IMG/VR virus record: IMGVR_UViG_3300011113_000644
Span: 1 to 64,000 of that record
Length of the DNA: 64,000 bases
From: a virus
Reading direction: 5' to 3' (one strand)
Positions 30,311 to 63,662 of the stretch are shown one piece after another; the stretch's first letter is position 1, and every line of letters starts with the position of its first letter. The translations under genes were made by a program, and so were the position numbers. The notes under the pieces are model-generated. The model searched no databases, was not told the DNA's origin, and was given only the letters and a program-made list of their open reading frames with translations.

Positions 30311-33300
30311 TTAAGCATTAACTAAGGTATATTGAGTACCCTGTGATGTTATATCTTGGTTTAAAATATATCCTTGACTTCCATTGAATACTATTGAGGT
30401 CTCAGTGGATAATGTGACTTGTCCATTATTAGTTAACTGATTATTTGTTTTGAATATTACAGGATATGTTTGTGTCAAATCAAAGATGAAAATACCAAAA
30501 CCGTTACCAACAGAAGCATTTCCGACGTAGTTAATCCTTACCCACATTTCATCTCCAGCTTGACCGTTAGTGTTTAAATCCTGTCCAAGAATTGTAAAAC
30601 TTGTTACACCATAAAGAGTGGGGTTAGTAATTAAGGTAAGGTTTGCAATACCTGTAACGGCATTTACCTGATAAACTACTAATTGTGTTGCTATCCCTGA
30701 AATAGTAAAATAAAGATATTCGACTCCATTAATAACCCTCAAAATTGGGACATGATTAAGCAATGTTTTGAAAAGATTACTACCTGGTCTATTAACATAC
30801 CCGCCATTCGCTGTTGTAGGCCTTTGAGCCGCGCTTGTATAATCCCAACTACACGCATTAAAATAACCATATCCACCGATAGTAGAAGGGATACAATATA
30901 TTCTATCAGAAATTAAACTTCTTAAAGTAATAGCCGAGCCAATCATAGTCCAAGAATATAGAGTATTTGTATTAACATTTCTGGCATAAAAAGTAGTATT
31001 TTGTATGTTACCGTAAAAAATGTATGTTGCCGTTGGGCAGTTGTAAATTACTGCACTTATTGGATTTGGATTATTGGACCCTGAAGACCATGTCCAATTA
31101 AGTCCTAACGATAGGGAAGTTATATTTGATGGAAAAGAAGTCATATCTACAGTATAACCAAAACCTTGTATGTTATTAACTAATGTCATAACATTATTTT
31201 GAATGCTTATACCTCCATTGTAGAATGACCCATAACTGGCGAATGTAAATGGTGATTTATTGGGTATTGGCAAATCATAAACTACCTGATTAGTTAATAA
31301 GCTTACAAACCTCAAGACATAAGATTGTGTACCTGTTGAATTATTACTTACTGAAACCATCGAAATTAAAAATCCTTGGTATTGTATCTGAGCAATTGGA
31401 CTATTTGTTGCAATAATTGAGTATGTTGACGGGTTCGCAACACCAATTCTTGATGTTTGACCTTCAAAATAACCATATGGAATTGTCGGTGAAGGTGTTA
31501 TCGTCGGTGTTATAGTTTTTGTTGGTGTAATTGAAGGTGTTTGAGTTATTGTAGGTGTTGCGGTTCTTGAAGGAACTGGAGGGAAACAAAATGAGTATGA
31601 TTCTCCTTGAGTGATTACAAAGTTTCCAAATACTGAGGTAACCTCTACATCTAATCTTGCCATGTATTGTTCAGGAGCATTAACATTAACATTTGTAACT
31701 ACAACTGAAATAAACCCATCCCTTCCTGCGGATGCTTCCATTATTGTGATAGTTGTACCCACTGGGATACGTTGGAATGAATCAGTGACTCCAAAACCAA
31801 GTACAATACTGCCTGATTCACCAACAGTTGGTGGTGGGAATGAACCGGCGTCAAACCCTGTACTATCTTTTGTAAAATTAAAGTCAGGTGATAAGTTTAC
31901 ACCACTACACAAACCAGTAATTGTTGGAGTTGGTGTGGTTGTTAGGGTTGGAGTAACAGTTGGTGTTACGGTTGAAGTTGGTGTAATTGTTGGAGTTACA
32001 GTTGAAGTTGGAGTTACAGTTGAAGTCACGGTCGAAGTTGGAGAAACAGTTGGTGTTATTGTACTTGTTGGTGATTGAGTTTGTGTTGGTGTTACCGTAT
32101 TTGTTGGTGATTGAGTTTGTGTCGGAGTAACTGTACTTGTCGGAGTAACTGTACTTGTTGGTGTAACTGTTGATGTAGGTGTCTGTGTGGCCGTTGGGGT
32201 GATTGTGGAGGTTGGTGTAACTGTTGAAGTTACAGTTGAAGTTGGAGAAACAGTTGGAGAAACAGTTGAAGTTGGAGAAACAGTTGGTGTTACTGTACTT
32301 GTTGATGTTTGAGTTTGTGTTGGACTAACAGTTGGAGTAACGGTCGAAGTTGGGGTTTGAGTTGGGGTTTGAGTTGGGGTTTGAGTTGGTGTGTCAGTCA
32401 CTGTTGCGGTAGGAGTTTGACTGACAGTTATTAATGAACATATTGCAAAAAATTCTCCACCTATACTTCCTCCTTCAGGACTTATTGAACCCTCACCCTG
32501 AAATGAATATATTGTTAACCCATCAAGATTTATGATTTGTTTATCCGTAACAAAAAATGATGCTGTTGTAACAAAGTCTGCGAATTGTAAAGTAATTGTA
32601 GAGTATCCTATAACGACTGAATCATAAAATGATTGGTCACCTCCATTATTAATGTCAAACCTTTCATATGGAGGACCACCATTAAAAAACCCATAATTTA
32701 CTTGTGTTGGTTCACCATATGTCAATCTAAAAGTACTACAAAGTGGTGTTAAAGTGGCGGTTGGTGTTACTGTCGATGTTACCGTGGCAGTTGGTGTAAC
32801 TGTGGATGTTGGCGTTTCAGTTGATGTAACCGTACTTGTAGGGGTAACAGTTGAAGTTACAGTTGATGTTGGGGTTTCAGTTGGGGTGACTGTCATTGTT
32901 GGGGTTTCACTTGAATTTGGTGTTTGTGTTGTCGTAGGGGTGTTTGTCGGGCTTTCTGTAATACTTGGTGTTACTGTTGGAGTTGGAGTACTTGTCGGTG
33001 TCTCGGTAGAGGTTGGGGTAATCGTACTTGTTGGAGTTACAGTACTTGTTGGAGTTACAGTACTAGTAGGAGTAACTGTCGATGTTGGAGTTTCTGTCTG
33101 AGTAGCAGTTGGTGTGACTGTAGAGGTTGGAGTAGGTGTGGCAGTTGATGTAATCGTGGGGGTCGGAGTTAACGATTCGTCAGGAGTTTCAGGTGGCGTC
33201 TCAGTCACTGTTGGAGTCAATGTTGATGTCGGAGTTTCTGTCGGTGTTAATGTTGATGTCGGAGTTAAAGTAATTGATGGACTAACCGATTGAGTTGGAG

Positions 33301-35245
33301 TAACCGTTTGTGAATTTGTCGGAGAAACTGTAAGAGAGGGTGTTTGTGTCGGTGTTTCAGTTGGGGTTGGAGTAACTGTATTAGTTGGGGTAGATGAAGC
33401 CTCTGGACTTTCATCAGGAGTTCGAGTAATAGTTGGGGTAATTGAAGTAGTCGGTGTGTTAGTCGGAGTTGGAGTGGTAGTTGGGGTTTCAGTTTGACTT
33501 GGAGTTTGACTCGGAGTCTGAGTTTGAGTGGGCGTTTGGGTTGGAGTTTCAGTAGGTGTGGGCGTTTGGGTTAATGAAGCGGTGACGGAGGCTTCTGGAG
33601 TTTCAGACACTTGAGGTGTATTCGTTATTGATGAAGTAATTGTAGGTGTGGTGGTCGTGGTAGGAGTTTGAGTACTTGTTGGGGTAATTGTTGGTGTTTC
33701 AGTTTGACTTGGAGTATTTGTAGGCGTTTCAGTTGGTGTGGGTGTTTGGGTATTAGTTGCAGTAGAAGAAGGGTTTGGAGTTTCTGATTGGGTAACTGTA
33801 TGTGATGGCGTATTAGTTATTGTTGGGGTATTAGTGGGTGATGGAGTATTTGTGGGAGTTTCAGTTTGAGTAGGTGTATTTGTGGGAGTTTCAGTTTGAG
33901 TAGGTGTATTAGTCGGAGTTTCAGTAGGTGTTGGAGTTTGTGTTAATGATGCCGTTATAGATGGTTCAGGTGTTTCGGACGCCTGAGGTGTATTTGTTAT
34001 TGATGAAGTGACAGTTGATGTAACACTTTGTGTAGGTGTTACGGTTGCCGTTGGTGTGGCAGTTGGTGTTTCAGTTTGAGTAGGTGTATTAGTCGGAGTT
34101 TCTGTTGGTGTCGGAGTCTGTGTGTTTGTTGCGGTTACAGAGGGGTCTGGAGTTTCTGATTGAGTAACTGTATGTGATGGTGTATTAGTTATTGTTGGCG
34201 TTATAGTTGGGGTTGGTGTGCTTGTGGGTGTTTCAGTTTGACTTGGAGTATTTGTAGGCGTTTCAGTTGGTGTTGGGGTATTTGTAGGTGTCTGTGTTGA
34301 TGTAGGTGTCTGTGTGTTTGTTGCGGTGAAGGATGGCTCTGGTGTTTCAGAAGCTTCAGGTGTTTTAGTTACCGATAAACTAATTGTTGGAGTCTTAGTT
34401 ATTGTTGGTGTATTAGTTTGAGTCGGTGTTTGAGTCGGTGTCTCGGTTTGACTGGGTGTATTTGTTGGAGTTTCTGTTGGGGTCGGAGTCTGTGTATTTG
34501 TTGCAGTTACAGAAGGGTCCGGAGTTTCTGATGGGTTAGGGGTTAACGTTGACGTTTTTGTTATAGTTGGAGTATTTGTTTGAGTTGGTGTTTGAGTTGG
34601 TGTTTGGGAATTTGTTGGACTATGAGTGGGTGTATATGTTACGGACGGAGTAGGCGATTTTGTGGCGGTAGGGGTTCGAGTTGTAGTTTTTGTTGGAGTA
34701 TTAGTTGGGGTTTCTGATGGAGTTAGTGATATTGTTGGGGTGTTTGTTGGACTTAAACTTATAGTTGGGGTGTTTGTTGGGGTAACAGTCGGGGTTGGGG
34801 TTTGACTTCTTGGAGGGACCGAAACCTCATCGACACAACAAGGCTGTTCTGTGGTCGAACCTGTCGTGGGTCCATACCCATCTAAAGAGAAAGATTCGGT
34901 AAAAGTAACCAAATTTTTATCGTTCAAATCTAATTTTACATTACCTTGACTTGATGTTATTTCAAATACTAATTCATAAGACCCAATTACAGAAGTTTGA
35001 TTTTTAGAAAATTGATATTCAATTATATAGATTAATTCTGATGAGTTAAGGGGGTTGGTCTGAGAAACAATACTACAAGTTAGATTTGAAAGGTAAATCA
35101 AACCATTGTCGACATTAATTAAACTCAGTTTTACAACATCAGTTGTTGACAAATTCTGTAATAAGTTGTAGCTACTGCGGCCGTCTTTAACTACCTCTAT
35201 TTGTATTTTAGATAATGTTGAATTTTGACTTATTATAAACTCCAT
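30311..35245 (-). CDS. Giant mucin-like Thr/Pro-repeat tail adhesin with BppU-like N-terminus
   Basis: The 1,644-residue protein has this order: a BppU-like N-terminal domain (residues 1-145, MEFIISQNSTLSKIQIEVVK); a Thr/Pro/Ser repeat of about 690 residues built on T-P-T-x; a globular beta domain (about 830-940); a second repeat of about 170 residues; another beta domain (about 1110-1225); a short repeat; and a 390-residue C-terminal beta-rich domain that may bind the host. The N-terminal domain is paralogous to the whole upstream protein, with which it overlaps by TGATG. No signal peptide is seen. I read it as a baseplate-anchored fibre with long stalks that are likely O-glycosylated. Confidence 0.75.
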   Translation of the reverse strand: MEFIISQNSTLSKIQIEVVKDGRSSYNLLQNLSTTDVVKLSLINVDNGLIYLSNLTCSIVSQTNPLNSSELIYIIEYQFSKNQTSVIGSYELVFEITSSQGNVKLDLNDKNLVTFTESFSLDGYGPTTGSTTEQPCCVDEVSVPPRSQTPTPTVTPTNTPTISLSPTNTPTISLTPSETPTNTPTKTTTRTPTATKSPTPSVTYTPTHSPTNSQTPTQTPTQTNTPTITKTSTLTPNPSETPDPSVTATNTQTPTPTETPTNTPSQTETPTQTPTQTNTPTITKTPTISLSVTKTPEASETPEPSFTATNTQTPTSTQTPTNTPTPTETPTNTPSQTETPTSTPTPTITPTITNTPSHTVTQSETPDPSVTATNTQTPTPTETPTNTPTQTETPTATPTATVTPTQSVTSTVTSSITNTPQASETPEPSITASLTQTPTPTETPTNTPTQTETPTNTPTQTETPTNTPSPTNTPTITNTPSHTVTQSETPNPSSTATNTQTPTPTETPTNTPSQTETPTITPTSTQTPTTTTTPTITSSITNTPQVSETPEASVTASLTQTPTPTETPTQTPTQTQTPSQTPSQTETPTTTPTPTNTPTTSITPTITRTPDESPEASSTPTNTVTPTPTETPTQTPSLTVSPTNSQTVTPTQSVSPSITLTPTSTLTPTETPTSTLTPTVTETPPETPDESLTPTPTITSTATPTPTSTVTPTATQTETPTSTVTPTSTVTPTSTVTPTSTITPTSTETPTSTPTPTVTPSITESPTNTPTTTQTPNSSETPTMTVTPTETPTSTVTSTVTPTSTVTSTETPTSTVTPTATVTSTVTPTATLTPLCSTFRLTYGEPTQVNYGFFNGGPPYERFDINNGGDQSFYDSVVIGYSTITLQFADFVTTASFFVTDKQIINLDGLTIYSFQGEGSISPEGGSIGGEFFAICSLITVSQTPTATVTDTPTQTPTQTPTQTPTSTVTPTVSPTQTQTSTSTVTPTVSPTSTVSPTVSPTSTVTSTVTPTSTITPTATQTPTSTVTPTSTVTPTSTVTPTQTQSPTNTVTPTQTQSPTSTITPTVSPTSTVTSTVTPTSTVTPTITPTSTVTPTVTPTLTTTPTPTITGLCSGVNLSPDFNFTKDSTGFDAGSFPPPTVGESGSIVLGFGVTDSFQRIPVGTTITIMEASAGRDGFISVVVTNVNVNAPEQYMARLDVEVTSVFGNFVITQGESYSFCFPPVPSRTATPTITQTPSITPTKTITPTITPSPTIPYGYFEGQTSRIGVANPSTYSIIATNSPIAQIQYQGFLISMVSVSNNSTGTQSYVLRFVSLLTNQVVYDLPIPNKSPFTFASYGSFYNGGISIQNNVMTLVNNIQGFGYTVDMTSFPSNITSLSLGLNWTWSSGSNNPNPISAVIYNCPTATYIFYGNIQNTTFYARNVNTNTLYSWTMIGSAITLRSLISDRIYCIPSTIGGYGYFNACSWDYTSAAQRPTTANGGYVNRPGSNLFKTLLNHVPILRVINGVEYLYFTISGIATQLVVYQVNAVTGIANLTLITNPTLYGVTSFTILGQDLNTNGQAGDEMWVRINYVGNASVGNGFGIFIFDLTQTYPVIFKTNNQLTNNGQVTLSTETSIVFNGSQGYILNQDITSQGTQYTLVNA
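31917..32427 (-). repeat. Thr/Pro/Ser repeat tract 2 of the giant adhesin
   Basis: About 170 codons of T-P-T-x units, mostly TxTPTSTVTPT-type, separate the two internal beta domains. Acidic residues are absent here, unlike in tract 1. Confidence 0.85.
32748..34806 (-). repeat. Thr/Pro/Ser repeat tract 1 of the giant adhesin, with higher-order units
   Basis: About 690 codons of T-P-T-x repeats. At least seven higher-order units, roughly 55-80 residues apart, are marked by SETP(D/E/N)PSxTA followed by TQTPTPTETPT. The DNA is not an exact tandem repeat, since synonymous codons vary, which argues for selection on the protein sequence. Val/Gly-rich frames on the other strand are by-products. Confidence 0.85.
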
Positions 35246-35598
35246 CAGTTAGTTACGTTAATATATAATTTTTCCCTATGTGGTAAAATATAATCACCAT
35301 CGTCAGTAATTAAAGTAAATTCCGCTTCAAATTTTCCTATTTGACGAGTGTCAAATGGAGAAAACTTATAATATATGTAATACTCCAATTTAGAATTTGG
35401 CTCAACAAACACTTTTTCCACAAATCCTCCCTTTTTATTAAGTATCACTTGCCTACCATCCAAAGTATCTTTCATAGAAAAATAAATCAATGAATTCTCA
35501 ATAATTTCAGAAAAGTTATCTAACGAAGACTCACCGTCTTTAACAATCTGCATTTTCAAAAGTGGAAGCGTAGCGTTTTTTTTAATAAAAAATTCCAT
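35245..35598 (-). CDS. BppU-like N-terminal domain protein, baseplate adaptor
   Basis: From the ATG at 35598 the protein has 117 residues (MEFFIKKNATLPLLKMQIVK). It aligns by eye with residues 1-130 of the adjacent giant adhesin: MEF-I-x-x-N-x-TL, QIVKDGxSS or VVKDGRSS, a Y-x-I-x-Y-x-FS strand, and IGxxExxF near the end. The pattern of short strands with a final G-K-F-E-A-E-F strand resembles the Ig-like N-terminal domain of BppU baseplate proteins. It may cap or seat the adhesin. An in-frame TTG 18 bases upstream was rejected since a TATTTAT element lies five bases before the ATG. Confidence 0.6.
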   Translation of the reverse strand: MEFFIKKNATLPLLKMQIVKDGESSLDNFSEIIENSLIYFSMKDTLDGRQVILNKKGGFVEKVFVEPNSKLEYYIYYKFSPFDTRQIGKFEAEFTLITDDGDYILPHREKLYINVTN

Positions 35599-35603
35599 AT
35601 TAA

Positions 35604-35610
35604 ATAAATA
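35604..35610 (-). promoter_or_regulatory. TATTTAT element before the BppU-like gene
   Basis: TATTTAT ends five bases before the ATG at 35598, between the glycosyltransferase genes and the adhesin genes. It would let the adhesin be made late, independently of the sugar genes. Confidence 0.45.
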
Positions 35611-35625
35611 CGCCAAAAAGTATTA

Positions 35626-38022
35626 TCAACTTTCTTTTCTTAGACTTCTATCATAATGCTCATATCTATTGTGTTCAGTTGGTGTGAGTAAAAGTATTCC
35701 GGGGTTTAAGTTACCTTTTTTGGTTTCTTGGAACATGTGACTCATCCAAGTTTGTTCATATGGATGTGTCCACTTAGTTTCTAAAAACATTTTTTTATTT
35801 CCATTCCTTGAAACTATTTGAGGCCAATTACAATAAAAAATTTCTCCGTTTGCGTATGGTACTCCTTGGTAGGATTTAATACTGTTAAATTTTGTTTTTG
35901 GGGCGTTTGGGTCTAATCCGTGTTCAGGTAATAATTCTTTACCTACAAAATATTCCTCTCTTACCGCCTGTGGTACATTATACCACGACCACTGTACTGA
36001 GTTATCGCCAAAAAACTCTGAAAAATTTAATTTCAGAAAATCAAAATTTTCTATTTCAGCAATTTTAATACTTTTTTCATAAAGATTTTCTACATATCTA
36101 TTAAATCCATTTCTACAAACCTCACCTTTATTTGGATAAAAAAACATATCATCCTCAAAGAAAAAATAAGCGTCCAATTTTGTCTTTTCAAAATGCTCAG
36201 CAACGAATTGTCTACCACCACAAATTCCCAAATTTTCTTTAGGCCATATTAATTCGAAATCATGTAAATTACATATTCTTTTATATTCTTCATCAGTAGA
36301 CCTATCGGTAGAATTATTTAATAAATATTTTTTTGGTTTGTTTAAAAAATCAACATCATAGTCAATAAAGGATTTAATGAGAGTATTAAATTGACTTGGA
36401 CTATTAAATCCTATAACATATAATCCCACATTTGACAAATTTTGAAAAGAAATCTTAGGGGTTATTTTTTTCTGCGTCTCAGTTCCGTTTTTCAAATCTT
36501 CAAAAAATTTACCAATTAATCCGTTTTCATCTATTTCATAATAAGATATTAAATTCGGATACTTGTAAGTCATAATTGAAAATAGGGACTCCTCGGTTCC
36601 CATGTAACCTCTGTCCAAAGTCTCATTCAAAAGACCATAATAAATTGAATTTAATTCTTTTATGTTTTGTTTTTTCCCTCCAAAAAACCCCCCTCTTGCA
36701 ACCAATTTAATATCATTGTCATCTGCCCATTCGTTTATTTTTGGATATGAAAAACCGTGAATTTCTTTATCCGCATTATATGGAAAACAAATAAAAATAA
36801 AATCAGAAACTTTTTCACTTAATTTTGTTAAAACTTTGTCGTGAGTAAAATATCCTTGGTGAACGGTATTTGTTATTCCAGCGTCAATCCAAAATAAATG
36901 TTCAGAGTTAAATTTATCTAAGATACAAGCGTCATTAAGTAAAAACATTTTAGACATAACCAAAGGGTTATACATTTCCAATTTGGCTTGCGTTGAGTCT
37001 TTTAACCAAGATGATTGATTATACCAATCTTGATTTGACCTTATTTTTTGAATTTTATCAAAATATTGATTTTCCTTAAACCATGACAGTTCCCGATATA
37101 TAAATTGTGTATTTTCTTCATTTCTTATAGAAAAAACAATATTTTTCAATTCGTCATCACCAAAGATTATGAGGTTACAATCAATATGGAGTAATTGATT
37201 TAGTTTTTCAATATAATGGTCAAAACTTCTTGACCACCCCTCTGATAAATTGTTTCTACCAATATTCCAAAGTCCTGTCACAATTGTTGGTTTAACAGAA
37301 TACTTTTCTGTAGTTTGGTAACTACTATGTGTTTTGATTTTTAAAGAAGTTGTTTCAGATAATTCCTCATAAAATTCCTGTGGTAATCCAACAATATCCT
37401 GTCCACTTATTTCATATTTATAATTTAGTTGATTGAATTTATTCAATATTAGGTCTTGTTCCTCAGTAGTTAAATTTATCCATTCTAACCTAACAACTTT
37501 TGGTCTAAATTCTTCAAAATCAATCTGTTTAAATATTATGTAGTCGTGTCCTTCAGCATCAATTTTAATTATGTCTATATTTTCAATTCTATGAGTCCTT
37601 ATTAACTTATCAAAAGTGATACATTTAACTGTGACTTTTTTACCATATTTTTCCACAGTTGGTCTATCAAATTCACTCCCTAACCCGTTTTTGGGAGGGT
37701 ATACTGCACTCATACCGTAAAAACAACTGTGTACCAAACCATTGTCAATAACATCACGGTCAATAGTAACCATTTCAATTTCACCATTATAATCTGAAAT
37801 CGCACTATTTTCAAAAACATTACCATTACTTGTAATATTTTTTTTTAGTTTTTCAAAAAGATATGGGATTGGCTCTACATATATACCTTTAAAATTGTAT
37901 GTATTGGTGTATCCAATTAACTCATCGAACATCACCCCATCCATCGCCCCTATATTCATTATATAAGTTTTGGGGTTTGTCCTACCTAAATAGTGAACCG
38001 CTTTATCAAAAAAATTATCCAT
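35626..38022 (-). CDS. Three-domain fusion: FkbM-type methyltransferase, HtrL/WlaTC-like and GT-A glycosyltransferase
   Basis: The 798-residue protein has an FkbM-like SAM methyltransferase at residues 1-215 (MNIGAMDGVMFDELIG, the acidic YVEPIP end of strand two, IIKIDAEGHDY). The middle domain (about 240-520) matches the HtrL/YibB-WlaTC type: GLWNIGRNNLSEGW, YNPLVMSKMFLLNDAC, LFWIDAGIT. The C-terminal domain (about 530-798) is a GT-A-like transferase with LGICGGRQFVAEH and the FFEDDMFF acidic motif. One chain could thus add and methylate sugars. It is read just after the 316-residue gene (3-base gap) and before the BppU-like gene, inside the adhesin operon. Confidence 0.75.
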   Translation of the reverse strand: MDNFFDKAVHYLGRTNPKTYIMNIGAMDGVMFDELIGYTNTYNFKGIYVEPIPYLFEKLKKNITSNGNVFENSAISDYNGEIEMVTIDRDVIDNGLVHSCFYGMSAVYPPKNGLGSEFDRPTVEKYGKKVTVKCITFDKLIRTHRIENIDIIKIDAEGHDYIIFKQIDFEEFRPKVVRLEWINLTTEEQDLILNKFNQLNYKYEISGQDIVGLPQEFYEELSETTSLKIKTHSSYQTTEKYSVKPTIVTGLWNIGRNNLSEGWSRSFDHYIEKLNQLLHIDCNLIIFGDDELKNIVFSIRNEENTQFIYRELSWFKENQYFDKIQKIRSNQDWYNQSSWLKDSTQAKLEMYNPLVMSKMFLLNDACILDKFNSEHLFWIDAGITNTVHQGYFTHDKVLTKLSEKVSDFIFICFPYNADKEIHGFSYPKINEWADDNDIKLVARGGFFGGKKQNIKELNSIYYGLLNETLDRGYMGTEESLFSIMTYKYPNLISYYEIDENGLIGKFFEDLKNGTETQKKITPKISFQNLSNVGLYVIGFNSPSQFNTLIKSFIDYDVDFLNKPKKYLLNNSTDRSTDEEYKRICNLHDFELIWPKENLGICGGRQFVAEHFEKTKLDAYFFFEDDMFFYPNKGEVCRNGFNRYVENLYEKSIKIAEIENFDFLKLNFSEFFGDNSVQWSWYNVPQAVREEYFVGKELLPEHGLDPNAPKTKFNSIKSYQGVPYANGEIFYCNWPQIVSRNGNKKMFLETKWTHPYEQTWMSHMFQETKKGNLNPGILLLTPTEHNRYEHYDRSLRKES

Positions 38023-38025
38023 AAT

Positions 38026-38976
38026 TTATTTAAAGATTTCAAAATCATCTAAAAACGATGATATTATTTTTATTTGGTTTTCAGGTCGGCAGTTCCTATC
38101 ATACCATCCTTTAGCCTCATTAATTATATAATCATATTGACCAGAAGTAACTATTTCGTTAATTGATGACTCCAATTTTTGGATAATGTAGTTTGATTGG
38201 CTTGAATCATATATTTTGGATTTTATGTCGTTATCCAATAAATCAACGTAATGTTTGTTAACTTCTATAGGTTCATAAGTCATAACGTCCAAATACTCTC
38301 TAATCAATAAGAGACCGAGTCCAAAAGATTCTAAGTCTCTGTAGCAAATTTTAGCAACCCCATCTAAGTTCATTCCAAATTTATGTTTTGACATTTCTTC
38401 ATAGTAACTTTCTTTTGTCATCCAATCTCCCTTGTCTTTTTTCTTAACATTAAATTTTTCACTAACTTTTAATACATCGACAAACTTTTCTCTTAATCCG
38501 TGACAAAGAGCATTAAAGTAAACTTTATCAAAAATTTTTTCGTTTGTTTTATTTTTTTCAATTAAGTTGTAGTCACTCATGTTTTCTAACATGTATACTG
38601 ATGGTTGTATTTTAGCGGAACCCTTATAATTATCAATTATTGATTGGTCTAACCTTGAGACACAAGAAAATTTGACCACATCAAAATTTTCGATTCCACT
38701 ACCTTCAGATAGTATAGCTGGAGCATAATCATGCCAACTATGGATAAAAGTTTTTCCGTTTGATTCATTAAATAATAGAAAATTAAAAGGGCTAAAAATT
38801 GACGGAAGACCGTTATTGTAATCATTTTTTATATTGTATTTATTTGATAAATCATTCAAATGTTTTATTTCAATAGTAATCCCTGTATTTTCTTGTAAAG
38901 ACTCAACAAAATTTTTATAAAATTCTCCAGCATACCAATCAGTATACAGAAGGTTATAAGCGGCAATTAAATTCAT
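38026..38976 (-). CDS. Probable glycosyltransferase, exostosin/GT-B-like
   Basis: The 316-residue protein has an N-terminal Rossmann-like start (MNLIAAYNLLYTDWYAGEFY). A C-terminal segment, SKHKFGMNLDGVAKICYRDL then ESFGLGLLLIREYLD, fits the donor-binding half of exostosin-like and GT-B transferases, where an Arg and a Glu contact the nucleotide sugar. Its start overlaps the end of the preceding gene by four bases (38973-38976). The linkage formed cannot be predicted. Confidence 0.5.
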   Translation of the reverse strand: MNLIAAYNLLYTDWYAGEFYKNFVESLQENTGITIEIKHLNDLSNKYNIKNDYNNGLPSIFSPFNFLLFNESNGKTFIHSWHDYAPAILSEGSGIENFDVVKFSCVSRLDQSIIDNYKGSAKIQPSVYMLENMSDYNLIEKNKTNEKIFDKVYFNALCHGLREKFVDVLKVSEKFNVKKKDKGDWMTKESYYEEMSKHKFGMNLDGVAKICYRDLESFGLGLLLIREYLDVMTYEPIEVNKHYVDLLDNDIKSKIYDSSQSNYIIQKLESSINEIVTSGQYDYIINEAKGWYDRNCRPENQIKIISSFLDDFEIFK

Positions 38977-39875
38977 TTAATTATTTCTAAATTGTTATTT
39001 ATATTTATTAGTTTTTGACTTGGGTTGTTAGATTTTGAATAGTATAAGAAAGTTGTAGTCCATGAAATTGAAGAAAAATAAAAATATATAGTTCCAAAAT
39101 TTGATAAAATGACCATTTCCGCTAAATTATCATAAAGACGCTCTAATAAAACTTCTCTACTAAAATTTTTATTATAAAAATAATAACAATGGTCATTTGG
39201 TAATTCATTCAAATTTTTGTATTTGTAAATTACCACATTTTCTAATTCTGAAAGTTTATCGACCGCATATTGGTTGTGTGATGTTATATAGAATTTTTTA
39301 TTTACGGTTTTTAATTTTTCATATAAATTATCACAATAAATTTTAAATTCTTCAGCCGGATTCAAAGCATAATCATTATATCTTATTTGAATCGCTTCAG
39401 ATATGTAAGAATTATTTTCTAAAAAATTTTTTACTTTATTATATATTTTAGGATTCAGTTTAGGTAATGTGATTGGTAAGTTTTCATTCCTTAATAAAGT
39501 TTCCATGTTAAACACATATTTGGGATAAACTTCAGAGGGTATTTCGTCAAAAAAAACATCCCACCAATGAGCTCCGGGTTTATCAGGACCGTACTGTGTT
39601 GAGTGGTATATATATCCTTCATAATTTTTATCACCAATTGAATGTTGCATATTAGTAATCTTATCAAAAACACTAAACGATTCCTCATCAAAAATTTCTT
39701 GAAGCTCAACATAATCAATGTATTTGTTACTACCTTGATTTCCGTTTGATGCAAAAATTAATTCACATTCGTATCCCAAATTTTTGTAATGATTTGTAAA
39801 ATTCAAAACCTCGACCGCTCCGCAATATAAATTACCTAGCCCATTATTGAAAGTAAGTTGTATTAATAATTTCAT
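38973..39875 (-). CDS. Probable glycosyltransferase-like protein, fold uncertain
   Basis: The 300-residue protein begins MKLLIQLTFNNGLGNLYCGA, a Rossmann-type strand followed by a glycine-rich GLGN loop similar to that of fucosyltransferase-like enzymes. A second half contains KFYITSHNQYAVDKLSELEN and a late segment EMVILSNFGTIYFYFSSISW resembling the donor-site helix of GT-B enzymes that read out a host or phage sugar. It sits two bases from the previous gene and overlaps the next. Family assignment is by pattern and setting only. Confidence 0.45.
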   Translation of the reverse strand: MKLLIQLTFNNGLGNLYCGAVEVLNFTNHYKNLGYECELIFASNGNQGSNKYIDYVELQEIFDEESFSVFDKITNMQHSIGDKNYEGYIYHSTQYGPDKPGAHWWDVFFDEIPSEVYPKYVFNMETLLRNENLPITLPKLNPKIYNKVKNFLENNSYISEAIQIRYNDYALNPAEEFKIYCDNLYEKLKTVNKKFYITSHNQYAVDKLSELENVVIYKYKNLNELPNDHCYYFYNKNFSREVLLERLYDNLAEMVILSNFGTIYFYFSSISWTTTFLYYSKSNNPSQKLININNNLEIIK

Positions 39876-39877
39876 AT

Positions 39878-40525
39878 TTAATAAAATATATGGTTAAATG
39901 GTTTAAAATAATTGTCTTCGGGGAAAACCATACCTACAAAAAAATTAAATTTATTTTCAGTTTCTATTATTGGAAAAGTTCCAAAATGTTTTGAACAATG
40001 CACAATATATGAATCTGCAAATTTTGGCTCAATGACTTGTCTGACAAAATTTTGGTCGGACCCATATCCATCACCTCCTTCCCATTTTTTTATCAAATTT
40101 TTTATTTTTATTCTGTTATTTTTTTTAATTCCCCACATTCCTCCCATAATTTTATCATGATTTACCTCATCCCTGATAGAGTGTAATAATTTGTCAGATT
40201 CTAAAAAAATATCGACACATTTTTTTTCTCTCCATGATAATCTAGAATCGGCATCCCTTGAAATCATAACCTCAACATCCGGTTCGTCTATTGGTAAAAA
40301 CCTCCACATCATAGAAGATTTGTTTGGTTTTTCTATTTTTCTGAATAACTCTACATTTTCATGTTTTTTCAATTCGTCAATAAAATATTTATCAACACTG
40401 TCACCATAATATACCCTACAAATCCATCCAGGATATATTATTTTAGCAAGTTCAACATTACACAACATACCGACAGTGTATTTTCTGTCCCATCCATACA
40501 GTGAAAAACTTATAATTTTTTTCAT
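39878..40525 (-). CDS. GT-A-type glycosyltransferase with RDADSR motif
   Basis: The 215-residue protein carries the metal-binding DxD as RDADSR (Arg90-Arg95), an upstream SMMWRFLPID and a downstream GGMWGIKKNNRIK, then YGSDQNF. These match the protein at 53636 on the other strand point by point (MFWRFFAVD, RDSDSR, GGMWGIKS, YGSDQTF), so the two are paralogues in the two sugar clusters. The fold is that of small GT-A transferases acting on a nucleotide sugar. It overlaps the preceding gene by four bases, indicating one operon. Confidence 0.7.
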   Translation of the reverse strand: MKKIISFSLYGWDRKYTVGMLCNVELAKIIYPGWICRVYYGDSVDKYFIDELKKHENVELFRKIEKPNKSSMMWRFLPIDEPDVEVMISRDADSRLSWREKKCVDIFLESDKLLHSIRDEVNHDKIMGGMWGIKKNNRIKIKNLIKKWEGGDGYGSDQNFVRQVIEPKFADSYIVHCSKHFGTFPIIETENKFNFFVGMVFPEDNYFKPFNHIFY

Positions 40526-41193
40526 TTTTTTATTTTACAACACCAAACTACTTTATTAAAATCTTCTGACATAAAATCAAATAAATTATTTTTTTCACAA
40601 CTTTCTGAAATGTCAGAGTTTTGAATTTCATGCCAATACCAAATTTTATTATGGATATTTTCTTTATAATCCTTTTCATCAAAAGCATAATCATGAGCCA
40701 TAATTATGTCGCCAGTTTTAAGATATCCACTCAAAGTTTTGAATTCTTCCTTTTTATTTCCCCCGTCACATAAAACGATTGTTCTTCCCTTTTGTTGTAT
40801 CATGGTTTTTACCGCCTCCTCATCTATCAGGGTATAATCGTCCTTAAAAATGTTCTCATGTCTGAAAATGATATTCAAATTTTTTTCTTTAATTTTACTT
40901 ACTAAATGACCAGGTTCATAAATGTCGTAGGTTATTAAATCAGTAGATTGGGAACCGTTATAATCTAATAAATCCCTAATCATTAAGGTCAATCCTCCAG
41001 CGGCGGTACCAATTTCAATTATTTGAGCCGGTCTCGTATCCTTGATTAATTTGTCAAAAGCAAATACTACTTTGTTATTTTGTTGTATTGATATTCCATC
41101 ATACACAACCATAGGAATGTTATGGTCTTTGAAAAATTCCTCATTGTCACAAGTACCATTGTTACACGTTAATTTTGATAAAATCTGTTCCAT
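40522..41193 (-). CDS. SAM-dependent methyltransferase / CmcI-like protein
   Basis: The 223-residue protein has a class I methyltransferase core: IIEIGTAAGGLTLMIRDLL (motif I, residues about 58-76), LITYDIYEPGHL (end of strand two), and GRTIVLCDGGNKKEEF then GDIIMAHDYAF. This order also defines the cephalosporin-hydroxylase-like CmcI family, common in sugar and surface-polymer loci. It may methylate a sugar in the adhesin glycan. It lies 12 bases after the GlcNAc-transferase-like gene and overlaps the next gene. Confidence 0.7.
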   Translation of the reverse strand: MEQILSKLTCNNGTCDNEEFFKDHNIPMVVYDGISIQQNNKVVFAFDKLIKDTRPAQIIEIGTAAGGLTLMIRDLLDYNGSQSTDLITYDIYEPGHLVSKIKEKNLNIIFRHENIFKDDYTLIDEEAVKTMIQQKGRTIVLCDGGNKKEEFKTLSGYLKTGDIIMAHDYAFDEKDYKENIHNKIWYWHEIQNSDISESCEKNNLFDFMSEDFNKVVWCCKIKK

Positions 41194-41205
41194 TTATTTA
41201 TTTAT

Positions 41206-42450
41206 TTATAATGTTCCTGTTAATCTTTCACCCCATCCTTTTGATGCTGAATGTGGCCAAACTACCCAATACTTTGGTTTTTTTGTTGTTTGGAATTCTC
41301 TCCACACTTTACAATAACCGTCAGGGTCATTTTTCATTCTTTGTATTTCACTTGGGTCGGCATCTTTTCTGTAAATTGTTTCGTCGTTTTCGTCGTGGAA
41401 CGCTACCGCCCAAAAATCATAATCATTTTCAGGTACTTGTGTATATCCTACGTCAATACAATGTTTGAATATTGATGCAAATGAATCCATCCATTCCTCT
41501 TCAGATGAATAATTATATGTGTTCGGTGGGTATTTTTTATCTATTGTTTCTTGTTGAACAGCTCTTTTAGAAAAAAGTAAACCTGAATATCGTTCATAGT
41601 CCCTCAAAGTCCGTTCAGTTCCAAATCCATAAATCCCATGTTCCATTGGAGGTTCGTTGTCCATACCAAATAGGGCTCTATTTTTTTTATGACAAAATGA
41701 ATTCCTTTCTCCCCATTTTTTGTCGTCATCCCATTGTTTAGTTCGACCTTTTCTTGTGTATTCATGCCAAATTAAAACTTTATGGGGGTGAAATAAATCA
41801 TACCCATGAGTATATGCTCTAGCGGCAATTGAAATTTCTTCTCCGTGAAAATAATAGTCAGGGTCGTGTTGTACCTCCTTAGCAAATTCACCCAAAGTGA
41901 AACAAAAATGAGCTGAGTAAAATCTAGAAGGTACTGGCTCTGTCAAATCTTTCCAACCAGGTATTGTTTCAGGAAGAAAGAAAACCGCACCTTCAGGAAT
42001 AAATCTATCAAATGTCATTCTCCATGGGTCTTGAACTCTACCCTGTGGGTCATTCTCAGGATTAAAAGATGAAACATAACCTGTAAGAAGGGGTTTTTTG
42101 TGTCCCTTTTTTTGGAGTTGTCTAACCATCTTTATCATTTCTTCATCCCAATTTTCAGCAAACCTCATGTGGGAATCAATTTGTAATGTATATTTTTCTT
42201 TTTTGTAAAGTTGTTGGATTTGATTCCTTGCCCAACAAGCTCCTTTTGATTCTAAATATGGAATATCTAAAACTCTAAATCTTTCATCACCATTATATTC
42301 TGACAAATCATCAAATTTGTCATCTGGGTGAAATTGTCTAGCTATTGCAAAAACTAAATTTTGAGGTTTTTTTGCATTTTCTATTGCCGATTTAATTGTT
42401 TTAATTAATTCAGGGTCTCGATATGAGGCAATTTGAATAAAAATTTTCAT
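41206..42450 (-). CDS. Glycosyltransferase of the GlcNAc-transferase (Skp1 GnT1-like) family
   Basis: The 414-residue protein starts IFIQIASYRDPELIKTIKSA and has the D-x-H metal motif as LQIDSHMRFAENWDEEM (Asp92, His94). It also has FHGEEISIAARAYTHGYDLF and the later HEYTRKGR. This order is that of the family named after the Skp1 hydroxyproline GlcNAc transferase, with many bacterial and phage members. In a locus with Pro/Thr-repeat proteins the enzyme is a natural candidate for the first sugar put on the protein. The target is inferred; the family call is strong. Confidence 0.8.
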   Translation of the reverse strand: MKIFIQIASYRDPELIKTIKSAIENAKKPQNLVFAIARQFHPDDKFDDLSEYNGDERFRVLDIPYLESKGACWARNQIQQLYKKEKYTLQIDSHMRFAENWDEEMIKMVRQLQKKGHKKPLLTGYVSSFNPENDPQGRVQDPWRMTFDRFIPEGAVFFLPETIPGWKDLTEPVPSRFYSAHFCFTLGEFAKEVQHDPDYYFHGEEISIAARAYTHGYDLFHPHKVLIWHEYTRKGRTKQWDDDKKWGERNSFCHKKNRALFGMDNEPPMEHGIYGFGTERTLRDYERYSGLLFSKRAVQQETIDKKYPPNTYNYSSEEEWMDSFASIFKHCIDVGYTQVPENDYDFWAVAFHDENDETIYRKDADPSEIQRMKNDPDGYCKVWREFQTTKKPKYWVVWPHSASKGWGERLTGTL

Positions 42451-42501
42451 ATTTTTTTATTCAAAAAGTATGGATAATGAATTAGAAATTAAATAGTAAA
42501 A

Positions 42502-45126
42502 TTAATTATTTATACAAGATTCATTACTTGCAAATGGTCCTGATATCACAGTTATTTGACCAATCATTGTTGATACGTTAGATTCTACTACTCTTGCACA
42601 TCCATTGAATGCGTTAGATGATGAAAGCCCATATACTTCGGGACTAACAAAATCTGCCGAGTATGTAGTCGTTACCTTAAATGTTGAAACGCTCTGAATA
42701 CCACTTTGATAAACAGTGGATGGGGTATTTGAAAACGTTGCTTCCAAATATAACCAATAATTATCCGCATCATCTGTAAATGCAAATGCGACGTAATCGT
42801 CACCATTAATAACCTCAGAAGACATGTTACCAAAAAGATATTCAAAATAATTAAGTGGGTCATTATTTTTAACATACGTTCTAATGTAATTTCTCATTTG
42901 AGAAACAGTTGTTCCTGCATTTATTGTAATTGTTAATGATATTGGTGTTGCTGGAGTATTTCTATATCCCGAAATTGTTAGTGAACAATTTTGAGTGAAG
43001 GTGTCTCCCATAAAAAAGCTTCTATTAACTTCAAAATTATTGAACCTTGCAACATTTGAAGGTATTATGGGTTGGAATCTTGGATTTTTAATTGTATTCT
43101 GACTTGAAGTAGGTGTGGGAGTTCTCGTTGGGTCGGGTGTATCACTAGGGGTTGTACTTCTTGTGGGGGTTACTTGATTTGAGGATGTTACAGTACTTGT
43201 TGGTGTACTTGTTGGTGTTTTTGTTAAAGTTGGTGTTGGTGTGTTTGACGGCTCAAGAGTATTACTAGGAGTTACACTTCTTGTTGGAGTTGCCGGATTT
43301 GTCGATGTTACGGTATTACTAAGGCTAACAGTTGGGGTTTTAGTCATAGTTGGCGTCGTAGTGTTACTTGGGTTTGGGGTTTGTGTGGGTGTCCTTGTTG
43401 GGGTTTTGGTCGGAGTTTCACTTGAAGTGGTGGTAATTGTAGGAGTATTACTAGGTGTTTCTGTACTTGTTATTGTTGGGGTATTTGAAGGTTCAATTTC
43501 TTGATTTGTTGGGGTATTGCTTGGTGTTGGTGTTATTGTTGGGGTATTGGTAGGTGTAACAGTTGATGTTGGAGTTTCTGTTGATGTTGCACTTTGGGTT
43601 GGTGTTGGAGTATTTGAAGGGTCAGGTGTTCCACTATTGTTAGGGGTTGTAGTAATTGTTGGTGTAATAGTAGATGTTGGTGTTTCTGTAATAGTGGATG
43701 TTGGTGTTTGTGTTGGTGTTGCGGTATTAGATAGAGTTATGGAAACCGATGGAGTGTTCGAAGGTGTTACGGTTACAGACGGTGTTGGAGTGTTTGAAGG
43801 GTTTGGGGTTTGGGTTTGACTTGAGCTCAAAGTTATTGTATTAGTATTTGTTGGGCTCACACTTATTGAATTTGTAATTGTTTGAGTCGGGCTTATTGTT
43901 GGTGTAGGTGTTAATGTTGGAGTATTTGTAGGTGTTTCAGTAGGGGTTGGTGTTTGAGTTTGTGTTGCGGTATTTGATTGTTCTGGAGTATTTGTTGTTG
44001 TTTTAGTCGGAGTGTGTGAAGAGGTAATTGATGGGGTGACAGTATTTGATACCGTAATGGTTTGAGTATTTGTAATTGAAGGTGTGTTTGATAGACTTGT
44101 AGTATTACTCGGTGTTTGAGTATTCGTTGTAGTCACAGTTGGTGTCTGTGTATTTGACAACGCTGGAGTTTCAGTTGTTGTTTGTGTTGGTGTATTTGTT
44201 GGAGTTTCTGTCGGGGTTACAGAATTTGACAGAGTGTTTGTGACTGTTGAGGTGTTTGTATTAGTTGGTGTAGATGTCGGATTAATAGAAGGTGTTTGTG
44301 TGTTTGTAGATGTTATAGTTGGTGTTGGGGTATTTGAAACCTCGGCAGTTTCACTCAAAGTTGGGGTATTTGTAATTGAACTAGTTACAGTTGGGGTATT
44401 TGTAATTGTATTAGTTACAGTTGGTGTAGTTGTATTTGTTGGGGTTGGGGTTATTGTAGATAAGTTTGATACTGATAAAGTTGGTGTTGGTGTATTAGTT
44501 GGTGTTGGTGTATTTGAAGGGTCGTTGGTTTCACTTGGTGTTTGTGTAGTTGTAGGTGTTTTTGTAACTGTGGATGTAACTGTTGGGGTTACTGTTGGTG
44601 TTGTAGTAATAGTTGGCGTTGTAGTGATAGTTGGCGTTAAACTAACCGTTGGAGTTGCAGTTGATGTTTGTGTATTAGTTGGTGTTTGTGTATTAGTTGG
44701 AGTGTTTGATGGTTCAGGTGTTTCTGAAATTGATGGTGTTAAAGTGTTTGATGGTGAAATAGTTATGGTTTGAGTGGTAGTTGGTGTCTGTGTTTTGGTT
44801 GGAGTAATAGTTGGTGTGGGTGTAGTCGTAGATGTTGGAGTCAAAGAATTTGAAATTGTGATTGTTGGAGTTAAGCTTAGTGTTGGTGTGGGTGTATTAG
44901 TTGGGGTTGGGGTTGGTGATTCACAAGAAAAGCTAACAATAAAAGTTTGGTCAAATGCCGAAAAATAAAACGAAAATATACCACTATTACATTCATTATA
45001 TGTATATGTGTAAGGAAAATTTAAACCGCTTCCTATCTGCGTATTTACTGAAGTTGAATTATTTAAAAAGAATAAATCAAAGTAATAAGATTGAAAATTT
45101 TCAGAATTAAATATTATATTAGGCAT
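42502..45126 (-). CDS. Second mucin-like Thr/Pro-repeat protein, tail fibre
   Basis: The 874-residue protein has a short N-terminal domain (residues 1-70, MPNIIFNSENFQSYYFDLFF), a Thr/Pro/Ser/Asn repeat of about 610 residues, and a 190-residue C-terminal beta domain (from NPRFQPIIPSN). The N- and C-terminal domains differ from those of the larger repeat protein, so the shared part is the repeat. It overlaps the LamG-like gene by eight bases and precedes the sugar genes. Likely a fibre or stalk, with O-glycosylation expected from composition. Confidence 0.7.
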   Translation of the reverse strand: MPNIIFNSENFQSYYFDLFFLNNSTSVNTQIGSGLNFPYTYTYNECNSGIFSFYFSAFDQTFIVSFSCESPTPTPTNTPTPTLSLTPTITISNSLTPTSTTTPTPTITPTKTQTPTTTQTITISPSNTLTPSISETPEPSNTPTNTQTPTNTQTSTATPTVSLTPTITTTPTITTTPTVTPTVTSTVTKTPTTTQTPSETNDPSNTPTPTNTPTPTLSVSNLSTITPTPTNTTTPTVTNTITNTPTVTSSITNTPTLSETAEVSNTPTPTITSTNTQTPSINPTSTPTNTNTSTVTNTLSNSVTPTETPTNTPTQTTTETPALSNTQTPTVTTTNTQTPSNTTSLSNTPSITNTQTITVSNTVTPSITSSHTPTKTTTNTPEQSNTATQTQTPTPTETPTNTPTLTPTPTISPTQTITNSISVSPTNTNTITLSSSQTQTPNPSNTPTPSVTVTPSNTPSVSITLSNTATPTQTPTSTITETPTSTITPTITTTPNNSGTPDPSNTPTPTQSATSTETPTSTVTPTNTPTITPTPSNTPTNQEIEPSNTPTITSTETPSNTPTITTTSSETPTKTPTRTPTQTPNPSNTTTPTMTKTPTVSLSNTVTSTNPATPTRSVTPSNTLEPSNTPTPTLTKTPTSTPTSTVTSSNQVTPTRSTTPSDTPDPTRTPTPTSSQNTIKNPRFQPIIPSNVARFNNFEVNRSFFMGDTFTQNCSLTISGYRNTPATPISLTITINAGTTVSQMRNYIRTYVKNNDPLNYFEYLFGNMSSEVINGDDYVAFAFTDDADNYWLYLEATFSNTPSTVYQSGIQSVSTFKVTTTYSADFVSPEVYGLSSSNAFNGCARVVESNVSTMIGQITVISGPFASNESCINN
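43100..44920 (-). repeat. Thr/Pro/Ser repeat tract of the second mucin-like protein
   Basis: About 605 codons of T-P-T-x repeats richer in Asn than the first protein. About ten higher-order units carry (D/E/N)PSNTPTPT at intervals of roughly 40-70 residues, the same type of acidic-proline spacer as in the larger adhesin. Confidence 0.85.
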
Positions 45127-47029
45127 AAGTTATATCATTAATTAATCCTGAACAATCAGGGCACCTTGTGTCAAAAAGTGAAAATTTATTTTTCAATATG
45201 TTAAAATTATGTACTATTTCTGCATAAGTTAATGGTTCAGTATACATTCTAAACTGTGATATTGCACCGTCAAATGTACCGGCAAATGTTGGTTCAAGTA
45301 GTACGTTTGTAGTCAGAGCTGATAATGAAGTACCTGATAAAACTTGATTTGGCATACATTCAGGGTCTTGTTGATATGTTAGTCCTGATAACGATGTAGG
45401 ACAACCTGATAACGTTAAACTTTCCCTGAGCCCCTGAGTTCCCCCACCCCAACTTATATTAAATGGTACCCCTAATTGTTTTTCTTTTTCAGTATTTAAC
45501 CCTCTTGGTATAATTTCCTCAAATCCATTTATTACAAAAAATAATCTACCATTAATATAAATTTTTAATGTTCCTAACCTATGATTAGTTTGAGACAACC
45601 ATTTTTCATTCAATTCAATTACTTCAATTTGTTCGGCAACTGTACCTCCTTCATGTGTAAATGGAGGTTCAATTAAAGACACGGTATCATTTGATAATGA
45701 ATTTACGTAATAATCTTTTGAAATTAACCCTAATCCTCCTCTATAATATAAATCACACTCATCAAAATATGTGTTTCTTTCCCAAACACAATCAATTAAA
45801 AACCAATGTTCATCACTCAAATAAGCAGGATTTACAGTTTGACAATAACTATTGATTGTATTTGTTGAGCAATATTCAGTAATTGTATACCCTGTCGTGT
45901 ATGTTATACCTGTTGTAGGACAAGAGCCGGTTGTCTGACAACCTCCAGTAAATTTTAAAACTTTAACACAAACTTTGGGGTTTGATGGACTACCAGATAA
46001 CCTAAGTGACATTGAATTTGATATGGTGTCTAATAATGGATTTTTATCGTTATTTGGTACGTTTGTTGTTTCGGCACAACCACAGTCGCAGGACGTATCG
46101 TGTTGCTCTGTATAAACTAATGGTTCATATACTTCCACGCATCTTGAGTTTGTAACCCCTGTATTTGAACAAGCACATGTTTTAAAACAATTTGTTAATC
46201 CTGAAGTAACTCTTGTGTAACCTGAATCAGTTAATGGATTACCGTCGGCATGATGGTAAAATTTATTTTCAGCTCTTGAGCCAAAATAAAAAAATGTATT
46301 TTTATTTTGTGGGTATATTTCGTTTAATGTTGTTTGATTTGGTAAAGGATAAAATTCATCTTCTAATCTTGGCTTAAGTATCATTTCACAAGTCCATCCT
46401 TTATTTGTCCTATTTGGAAAAACCTCATAGTCGTACCCAAACAATTTAAAAAACCCTTGATGAAATCCACCGTATAGTTGATTGTAAACACCTACTGTTG
46501 AACCGGTTTTGGTCACAATATTGTATAATGATTGTTTTGTGTTACCTGAAAACCTGTTTGTTGGATTTGTGTTACCAGTTATTGGAATCAATTTTAATCT
46601 TCTGTCATAATAAAAACGGTTCCATTTAGACGTTCCTGTAAATAGTCCCATTGTAAAAAACAAGGTTTCTCCAGATATTCGGGTAGTTAATCCGTTATCA
46701 ATACCTGTTAACCCTATGTCACATAATGTAGTCGATGTATAACAAGACAAATCATCATTATTTGGATTATAATAATTTAAAGAAACTAAAGTATTTCCAG
46801 TATTATAATCACCATAATTTAATGTGAATAGTTGGGAACTACCTGAATTATTTAAATCAAAGTGAATTGGTAACCTATTACCATCATTAATACCAATAAT
46901 TTGATTAGAAAAAACAACTTCTTCGTTATAATCTTTTTCATCCGATGCTAAGGAAATATCAAAAATGGGTTTATGTTGGGTAATAAACCATCTTTTATAG
47001 TTATATTGATTAATATTCTGTTGAGACAT
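45119..47029 (-). CDS. Tail fibre-type protein with LamG-like C-terminal fold and Cys-rich segment
   Basis: The 636-residue protein is beta-rich. Residues about 465-620 contain GTLKIYINGRLFFVINGFEE and TFAGTFDGAISQFRMYTEPL, which is the final-strand signature of LamG/concanavalin-like domains that often bind carbohydrate in fibres. Residues about 278-325 hold a Cys cluster (CFKTCACS, CDCGC) unusual for a phage fibre. It opens the minus-strand adhesin and sugar array, with a TATTTAT element six bases before the ATG. It may be a fibre, an appendage base or a receptor-binding part. Confidence 0.65.
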   Translation of the reverse strand: MSQQNINQYNYKRWFITQHKPIFDISLASDEKDYNEEVVFSNQIIGINDGNRLPIHFDLNNSGSSQLFTLNYGDYNTGNTLVSLNYYNPNNDDLSCYTSTTLCDIGLTGIDNGLTTRISGETLFFTMGLFTGTSKWNRFYYDRRLKLIPITGNTNPTNRFSGNTKQSLYNIVTKTGSTVGVYNQLYGGFHQGFFKLFGYDYEVFPNRTNKGWTCEMILKPRLEDEFYPLPNQTTLNEIYPQNKNTFFYFGSRAENKFYHHADGNPLTDSGYTRVTSGLTNCFKTCACSNTGVTNSRCVEVYEPLVYTEQHDTSCDCGCAETTNVPNNDKNPLLDTISNSMSLRLSGSPSNPKVCVKVLKFTGGCQTTGSCPTTGITYTTGYTITEYCSTNTINSYCQTVNPAYLSDEHWFLIDCVWERNTYFDECDLYYRGGLGLISKDYYVNSLSNDTVSLIEPPFTHEGGTVAEQIEVIELNEKWLSQTNHRLGTLKIYINGRLFFVINGFEEIIPRGLNTEKEKQLGVPFNISWGGGTQGLRESLTLSGCPTSLSGLTYQQDPECMPNQVLSGTSLSALTTNVLLEPTFAGTFDGAISQFRMYTEPLTYAEIVHNFNILKNKFSLFDTRCPDCSGLINDITYA

Positions 47030-54295: not shown

Positions 54296-54296
54296 T

Positions 54297-54794: not shown

Positions 54795-54810
54795 AAAAAC
54801 GAAAAAAAAA

Positions 54811-55446: not shown

Positions 55447-55450
55447 TAAT

Positions 55451-56804: not shown

Positions 56805-56816
56805 AAATTTAAAGTT

Positions 56817-57476: not shown

Positions 57477-57491
57477 CATTATTATTTAATT

Positions 57492-59067: not shown

Positions 59068-59069
59068 AA

Positions 59070-59843: not shown

Positions 59844-59845
59844 TT

Positions 59846-60265: not shown

Positions 60266-60272
60266 TATTATA

Positions 60273-63020: not shown

Positions 63021-63029
63021 AGTTAAAAA

Positions 63030-63653: not shown

Positions 63654-63662
63654 TATACACAT

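Follow-up and report, generated by a model that had tools for sequence, protein, structure and literature searches.

A phage fibre operon with long Thr/Pro/Ser tracts and a candidate cassette for their mucin-type O-glycosylation

Background

Streptococcal and staphylococcal serine-rich repeat proteins (SRRP) are adhesins with alternating Ser/Thr repeats that are glycosylated in the cytoplasm by the products of neighbouring genes, where the starter is fixed and the later transferases vary. The starter is the GT-B pair GtfA/GtfB, and export is by a dedicated SecA2. Chlorella virus PBCV-1, a eukaryotic virus with an N-linked capsid glycan, encodes its own protein-glycosylation enzymes. Here we describe an operon on the minus strand of a 64 kb stretch of DNA (the window) out of the 71.8-kb IMG/VR virus record IMGVR_UViG_3300011113_000644, in which six sugar-modifying genes are flanked by two genes with long Thr/Pro/Ser tracts. 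In the best reading of this locus, which we consider likely, it serves cytoplasmic mucin-type O-glycosylation of virion fibre stalks.

Glycosyltransferase family GT60 initiates mucin-type glycosylation in Dictyostelium (PMC3188802), and the Trypanosoma cruzi homologue of the Dictyostelium enzyme adds alpha-linked N-acetylglucosamine (GlcNAc) to Thr of mucins (PMC3769586). Among phages, virion proteins of mycobacteriophages carry glycans (Freeman et al. 2023, cited through PMC12619734), and according to the available part of PMC5852040 Xanthomonas phage XacN1 has at least two virion glycoproteins, for which its authors suggest phage-encoded glycosyltransferases as the makers. A search of the literature on mucin-like phage proteins with Thr/Pro repeats brought up no relevant paper.

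Results

Lead enzyme

The 414-amino-acid (aa) protein encoded next to the first repeat gene matches PF11397 with E=3e-67 and 228 bits, the curated Pfam cut-off being 21. PF11397 alone is seen in the Pfam scan, and the C-terminal ricin-type lectin domain of GT27 is absent. D92 and H94 of the DSH motif are invariant among 43 homologues. An AlphaFold2 (AF2) model (pLDDT 91.9) was compared with PDB using VIA-align, and the top 29 entries are all polypeptide N-acetylgalactosamine (GalNAc) transferases with Z 18.8-21.8, the root mean square deviation being mostly 3.4-3.8 over 258-311 aligned residues; the next enzymes drop to Z 17.1. Searching PDB with a profile of the 43 homologues gave human GalNAc-T7 as the only plausible match, a weak one (E=0.05) over the catalytic core, in which D-S-H of the phage enzyme stands opposite D-A-H. 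The conserved motif and the AF2 model thus agree with the GT-A fold and DxH metal motif of PF11397/GT60. By its predicted fold the enzyme resembles GT27 but is not assignable there. Family and predicted fold support an enzyme of the mucin-initiating type, which improves on an earlier annotation of the DNA (the first-pass annotation), where a GlcNAc-transferase-family enzyme was placed between the repeat genes. A hydroxyproline (Skp1-like) route was also considered and is less likely, as the PF13640 hydroxylase is absent from the 71.8-kb record, itself a fragment.

Tracts and fibre-like proteins

Order, composition, strand and coordinates of the ten open reading frames (ORFs) agree with those given in the first-pass annotation (Table 1). 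The tracts amount to 639 residues in the 874-aa protein and 988 in the 1644-aa protein (122-850, 931-1130, 1209-1267), that is 1,627 residues where about 1,500 codons had been estimated. They consist of 38-39% Thr, 17-18% Pro and 11-13% Ser (68% for the three together), Trp is absent, and they have the long Thr/Ser/Pro-rich composition by which mucin-type acceptors (PTS domains, named after Pro, Thr and Ser) are recognised. Random viral loci contain 6 S/T/P-rich ORFs among 1,217, so that the phage tracts are far above chance. The tracts are built as a regular dyad in which every other residue is Thr or Ser (parity 0.82 and 0.76 vs about 0.2 after shuffling), and 95% of the proline-to-proline spacings are even; a typical mucin is less regular than this.

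The window also encodes a tail sheath, a tail tube and a baseplate hub, meaning that the putative fibre genes share the virion structural gene region of a contractile-tailed phage. Pfam and PDB searches with the 636-aa protein were without match, and a PHROG search points to a virion structural protein family (Table 1). The names "LamG-like" for this protein and "BppU-like" for the 123-aa protein, both from the first-pass annotation, were dropped, as neither has a Pfam or PDB match; they are kept below in quotation marks as labels. In alignment the 123-aa protein is 28% identical to the N-terminus of the 1644-aa protein (window positions 34846-35245), and the two apparently form one family.

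Other cassette enzymes

In the 798-aa protein, described from the outset as a three-domain fusion, Pfam finds an FkbM methyltransferase (1e-17, about 24-203) and HtrL_YibB (7e-20, 246-494), followed by a third domain (about 530-798); HtrL_YibB and the third domain were modelled as two GT-A domains (AF2, VIA-align). A weak PHROG match of the last domain is to beta-glucosyl-HMC alpha-glucosyltransferase (E=0.03). The gene annotated as a methyltransferase has a match to RMNT_CmcI (Table 1). Three further proteins had been called transferase-like, and for these the outcome is mixed. The 316-aa protein weakly matches exostosin GT47 and AO75L in a profile search (E=0.005); the 215-aa protein, with a relative in the same window at 53636-54295, has an invariant R90 D91 D93 (R-D-x-D) in its family alignment and no library match; and the 300-aa protein had no match in library searches. 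Pfam scans of the operon contained neither a GtfA/GtfB GT-B starter nor SecA2/Y2 export genes.

Table 1. Features of the operon and its surroundings, with positions in the window
Feature	Position	Strand	Evidence or remark
636-aa putative fibre/virion protein ("LamG-like")	45119..47029	-	first gene of operon; PHROG virion structural protein 5e-5
874-aa Thr/Pro/Ser-tract protein 1	42502..45126	-	composition, dyad repeat; phrog_15511 1e-14
Tract of 874-aa protein	residues 51-692, about 43051-44976	-
414-aa PF11397/GT60-type polypeptide alpha-HexNAc-transferase candidate	41206..42450	-	Pfam 3e-67
D92-S93-H94 motif of 414-aa enzyme	about 42169-42177	-
223-aa sugar O-methyltransferase-like protein, variable cassette gene	40522..41193	-	RMNT_CmcI 1.8e-5
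215-aa probable glycosyltransferase, variable gene	39878..40525	-	R-D-x-D motif, family alignment
300-aa protein, variable gene	38973..39875	-
316-aa GT47/exostosin-like transferase, variable gene	38026..38976	-	profile match E=0.005
798-aa fusion, FkbM methyltransferase and two GT-A domains	35626..38022	-	Pfam, AF2 model, VIA-align
123-aa small protein ("BppU-like")	35245..35616	-	resembles N-terminus of 1644-aa repeat protein
1644-aa fibre/adhesin	30311..35245	-	composition, dyad repeat; phrog_15511 4e-29
Layout of 1644-aa protein			N-terminal anchor domain, three Thr/Pro/Ser tracts, intervening domains, C-terminal domain
Three tracts of 1644-aa protein	about 32696-34882, 31856-32455, 31445-31621	-
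Divergent second glycan operon	49726..63998	+	runs past window end

Linkage in phages

A viral scan for the enzyme gave 190 matches, of which 80 were examined, and after removal of near-copies 52 loci remained, the window included. Most of these are syntenic and hence not independent. A Thr/Pro (T/P)-rich ORF was found in 50 of the 52 vs 2 of 120 random viral loci, the two sets being similar in total length (1054 vs 984 kb), and a homologue of the double-transferase fusion in 47. S/T/P-rich ORFs are most frequent at the gene position immediately upstream of the enzyme (34/52, background 6/1217) and become fewer with distance. The small "BppU-like" gene is present in 32 loci and the 636-aa family in 18, and the middle genes are variable, each in 3-14 of the 52 (the 300-aa protein in 3, the 223-aa protein in 14); across loci their families include GT10 (fucosyltransferase), GT25, PLOD-type glycosyltransferase and carbamoyltransferase.

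When loci with 8 kb upstream were anchored on the fusion instead, a T/P gene was present in all 40 having the enzyme, and one locus had neither. Co-occurrence across related genomes, which the first-pass annotation proposed as a check, is therefore seen in that the cassette is rarely without a T/P-rich gene (50/52 and 40/40). Phages with the cassette elsewhere in the genome usually have T/P genes beside it, the exception being L668. T/P motifs occur in 33 and PF11397 in 15 of 35 records examined, several of the latter at another place in the genome. PF11397 is enriched in records with T/P motifs (15/50 vs 3/50 random records), but record sizes differ. In the random control for the motif, the single positive among 37 records (G097) carries the same enzyme-fusion operon.

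As a separate observation, in L416-L495 the "LamG-like" gene and the DNA polymerase border a variable island that may be nearly empty, may contain only T/P fibres, or may contain fibres together with the glycosylation cassette.

Linkage in bacteria

Bacterial linkage was read from genome contigs. The enzyme adjoins T/S/P-rich proteins in distant bacteria (Saprospiraceae, the isolate Jiulongibacter, Gemmatimonas, Prosthecobacter, Vicinamibacterales, Sorangium and others), and this recurrence argues for function over inherited gene order. Six of the small neighbours, from Saprospiraceae, Jiulongibacter, Gemmatimonas, Vicinamibacterales, L381 and Sorangium, start with a twin-arginine motif and then a hydrophobic stretch, as judged by eye and by pattern. 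A possible bacterial counterpart of the phage system, made of the enzyme and a twin-arginine T/S/P-rich protein, was noted at L337:7942-12806, L331:8504-13092, L381:7468-13752 and L406:2273-6019.

S/T/P-rich neighbours in bacteria peak at the gene preceding the enzyme (13/71); nine of these 13 are from Burkholderia and relatives, and the three neighbours read out are fimbria-like and not true tracts. Enzyme and double GT-A fusion form a single ORF at L390:3652-6897 and L406:2756-6019, and one ORF at L354:17-3649 matches enzyme, fusion and methyltransferase. In a quick tree of the enzyme with several long branches, the bacterial cases with a T/S/P-rich neighbour lie on scattered branches, and copies binned as Saprospiraceae/Bacteroidia (L331-L333) nest inside the phage clade, which suggests phage-cell transfer or misbinned phage contigs.

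Second operon and neighbouring genes

The plus-strand operon spans 49726 to 71812, the last position of the record. Inside the window it encodes GT4-like, GT2-type, GT17, DUF3431, methyltransferase, hexapeptide acyltransferase, Gfo/Idh/MocA, DegT aminotransferase and FkbM proteins, and beyond it two GDP-mannose-4,6-dehydratase-like enzymes along with a C-methyltransferase. Its probable role is to furnish the same glycan with donors and additional sugars, which would make it part of the system. A phoH gene also lies beyond the window end, alongside this operon.

The DNA polymerase has distant cultured-phage relatives only (about 23-31% identity), and a DNA search with the 874-aa repeat gene among cultured phages gave no match. 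Adjoining the polymerase, a 192-aa protein (26667-27245) looks HNH-endonuclease-like by eye (CxxC and HIDHIVPLS motifs). The tail sheath gene (17529-20828) is unusually long, encoding 1099 aa, with its sheath-family match mainly in the C-terminal third.

Discussion

Proposed pathway

From the gene content, the families, the predicted folds and the conserved linkage described above we infer an acceptor, a sugar, an order of steps and a benefit as follows. The operon would make tail-fibre-like proteins with long extended Thr/Ser-x stalks together with the enzymes that O-glycosylate them, and the stalks would be glycosylated in the host cytoplasm ahead of virion assembly. The PF11397 enzyme would start by placing an alpha-linked N-acetylhexosamine (HexNAc) on Thr/Ser, probably GlcNAc from uridine diphosphate (UDP)-GlcNAc, and the two GT-A domains of the fusion may attach the sugars that follow, a step that nearly all relatives would share. 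The intervening genes (methyl-, carbamoyl- and fucosyl-type transferases) could decorate the glycan and differ among phages, while the divergent operon may provide further transferases and unusual sugar nucleotides. The outcome would be stiff, protease-resistant, sugar-coated fibre stalks with a varying type of glycan. A glycosylated stalk in tail-fibre-like proteins would fit better than the coat that the first-pass annotation offered along with it in its "phage-built mucin coat or stalk".

It is also conceivable, with chances somewhat below even, that a mobile cytoplasmic mucin-type O-glycosylation system is common to phages and bacteria, in which exchangeable decorators join a GT60-type starter and a double GT-A extender in acting on regular Thr/Ser-x stalks that end up in virion fibres in phages and in surface proteins exported by the twin-arginine translocation (Tat) pathway in cells.

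Alternatives

Several results weigh against glycosylation of the stalks. With the "LamG-like" gene or the polymerase as anchor, many sister phages are seen to have the two genes close together and the cassette absent there, and tracts are nonetheless present in 19 of the 24 complete sister intervals that lack the enzyme (median 122 residues). Some of these enzyme-less tract-bearing intervals belong to phages with the cassette elsewhere. No transferase family was found flanking the T/P genes of 15 records that lack PF11397, and the 261-kb record G171 has tracts but no PF11397. The presence of the enzyme does not go with a stronger dyad repeat, in a comparison set chosen by the TPTxTPTxTPT motif and hence biased, and dyad regularity was rejected on this sample as a mark of modified tracts. 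In bacteria most relatives of the enzyme lack a T/S/P-rich neighbour, and a paired tree test (independent pairs) of the fusion against the T/P neighbour gave no significant result. Which proteins of XacN1 are glycosylated is not stated in the available text of PMC5852040.

As tracts occur in sister phages without a neighbouring transferase, they are independent of the cassette, and the idea that T/P tracts need the cassette was rejected. The first-pass annotation had itself named repeat proteins found regularly without transferases beside them as speaking against it; sister phages partly show this, while the cassette is in turn rarely without tracts. Intervals with the cassette have tracts in 37 of 39 cases (median 487 residues), and tract residues are more numerous where it is present (p=0.0005, kinship ignored). 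It is apparently the cassette that depends on the tracts, and not vice versa. Such a pattern would fit a modifying system for an older linker, but also an insertion hotspot. That the interposed enzymes are dedicated to the tracts, as first proposed, gains from enzyme type and linkage and loses from tracts that do not depend on the cassette; the modification would presumably be glycosylation, with the sugar suggested above.

The tracts might on the other hand be unmodified flexible or extended linkers, with a cassette that modifies other virion proteins (capsid, tail) and owes its place to an insertion hotspot in the fibre region. Tracts without a neighbouring transferase in sister and other phages agree with this, as does the resemblance of the cassette to an insertion between the "LamG-like" gene and the DNA polymerase. 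We nevertheless regard it as unlikely: the enzyme is rarely without a T/P gene even where the cassette has been relocated, unrelated bacteria have small T/S/P-rich proteins adjoining the enzyme, and tract residues increase with the cassette as given above. The enzymes could also alter the host surface polysaccharide during infection, for superinfection exclusion or receptor masking like phage O-antigen-modifying enzymes. Many phage glycosyltransferases are generally known to act in this way, and the second operon (49726-63998) resembles a polysaccharide cluster. The genes are placed within a run of fibre-like genes, however, the lead enzyme is predicted to fold like polypeptide-directed transferases, and the genes scanned showed no flippase, polymerase or priming membrane transferase, which leaves this explanation very unlikely. 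Still more improbable is glycosylation of the phage DNA, to which the weak PHROG match of the fusion's last domain would point; the best structural matches of the modelled lead enzyme are polypeptide transferases, the linkage of the genes is to fibres, and the scanned genes included no base-modification enzyme.

If stalk glycosylation is correct, phages make mucin-like glycoproteins with their own enzymes, of a type regarded as characteristic of eukaryotes, and change the glycan through gene exchange, which adds a recognisable route for dressing virions. PF11397, the double GT-A fusion and T/S-x tracts would form a searchable signature, and prokaryotes would stand out as a reservoir of enzymes akin to mucin-glycosylation starters. 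Cultured phages XacN1, RAS14 and CM1 and the isolate Jiulongibacter sediminis make this reading directly testable.

Comparison with known systems

The available text of PMC12619734 places the mycobacteriophage glycans at the C-termini of capsid and tail tube proteins, and mentions neither mucin-like tracts nor a PF11397 starter. PBCV-1 is alike in its virus-encoded protein glycosylation, and its AO75L-type exostosin weakly resembles the phage 316-aa protein; it differs in having an N-linked capsid glycan and in being a eukaryotic virus. To the SRRP islands there is an analogy only, as the phage has a predicted GT-A polypeptide-transferase fold, and virion assembly instead.

XacN1 is the cultured relative. 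Its starter enzyme ORF334 (50% identity), a carbamoyltransferase and the fusion ORF330 are close together, and it has 51 matches to the motif TPTxTPT vs 0 for the reversed motif; a longer motif had no match in the cultured phages RaK2, CBB, Atu_ph07 and T4. XacN1 is thus similar in its homologous starter and fusion, its T/P-tract proteins and its virion glycoproteins (available part of PMC5852040), and dissimilar in that its T/P genes are scattered through the genome and not beside the enzyme. In the same part of that paper the authors draw no link between enzyme and tracts.

Mucin-type alpha-GlcNAc O-glycosylation by GT60, as in Trypanosoma cruzi mucins and Dictyostelium, shares with the phage operon PF11397, Thr/Pro-rich acceptors and the addition of further sugars by other transferases. 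It takes place in the Golgi, whereas the phage system is phage-encoded, is proposed to be cytoplasmic with a virion fibre as acceptor, and has differing accessory enzymes in one run of genes.

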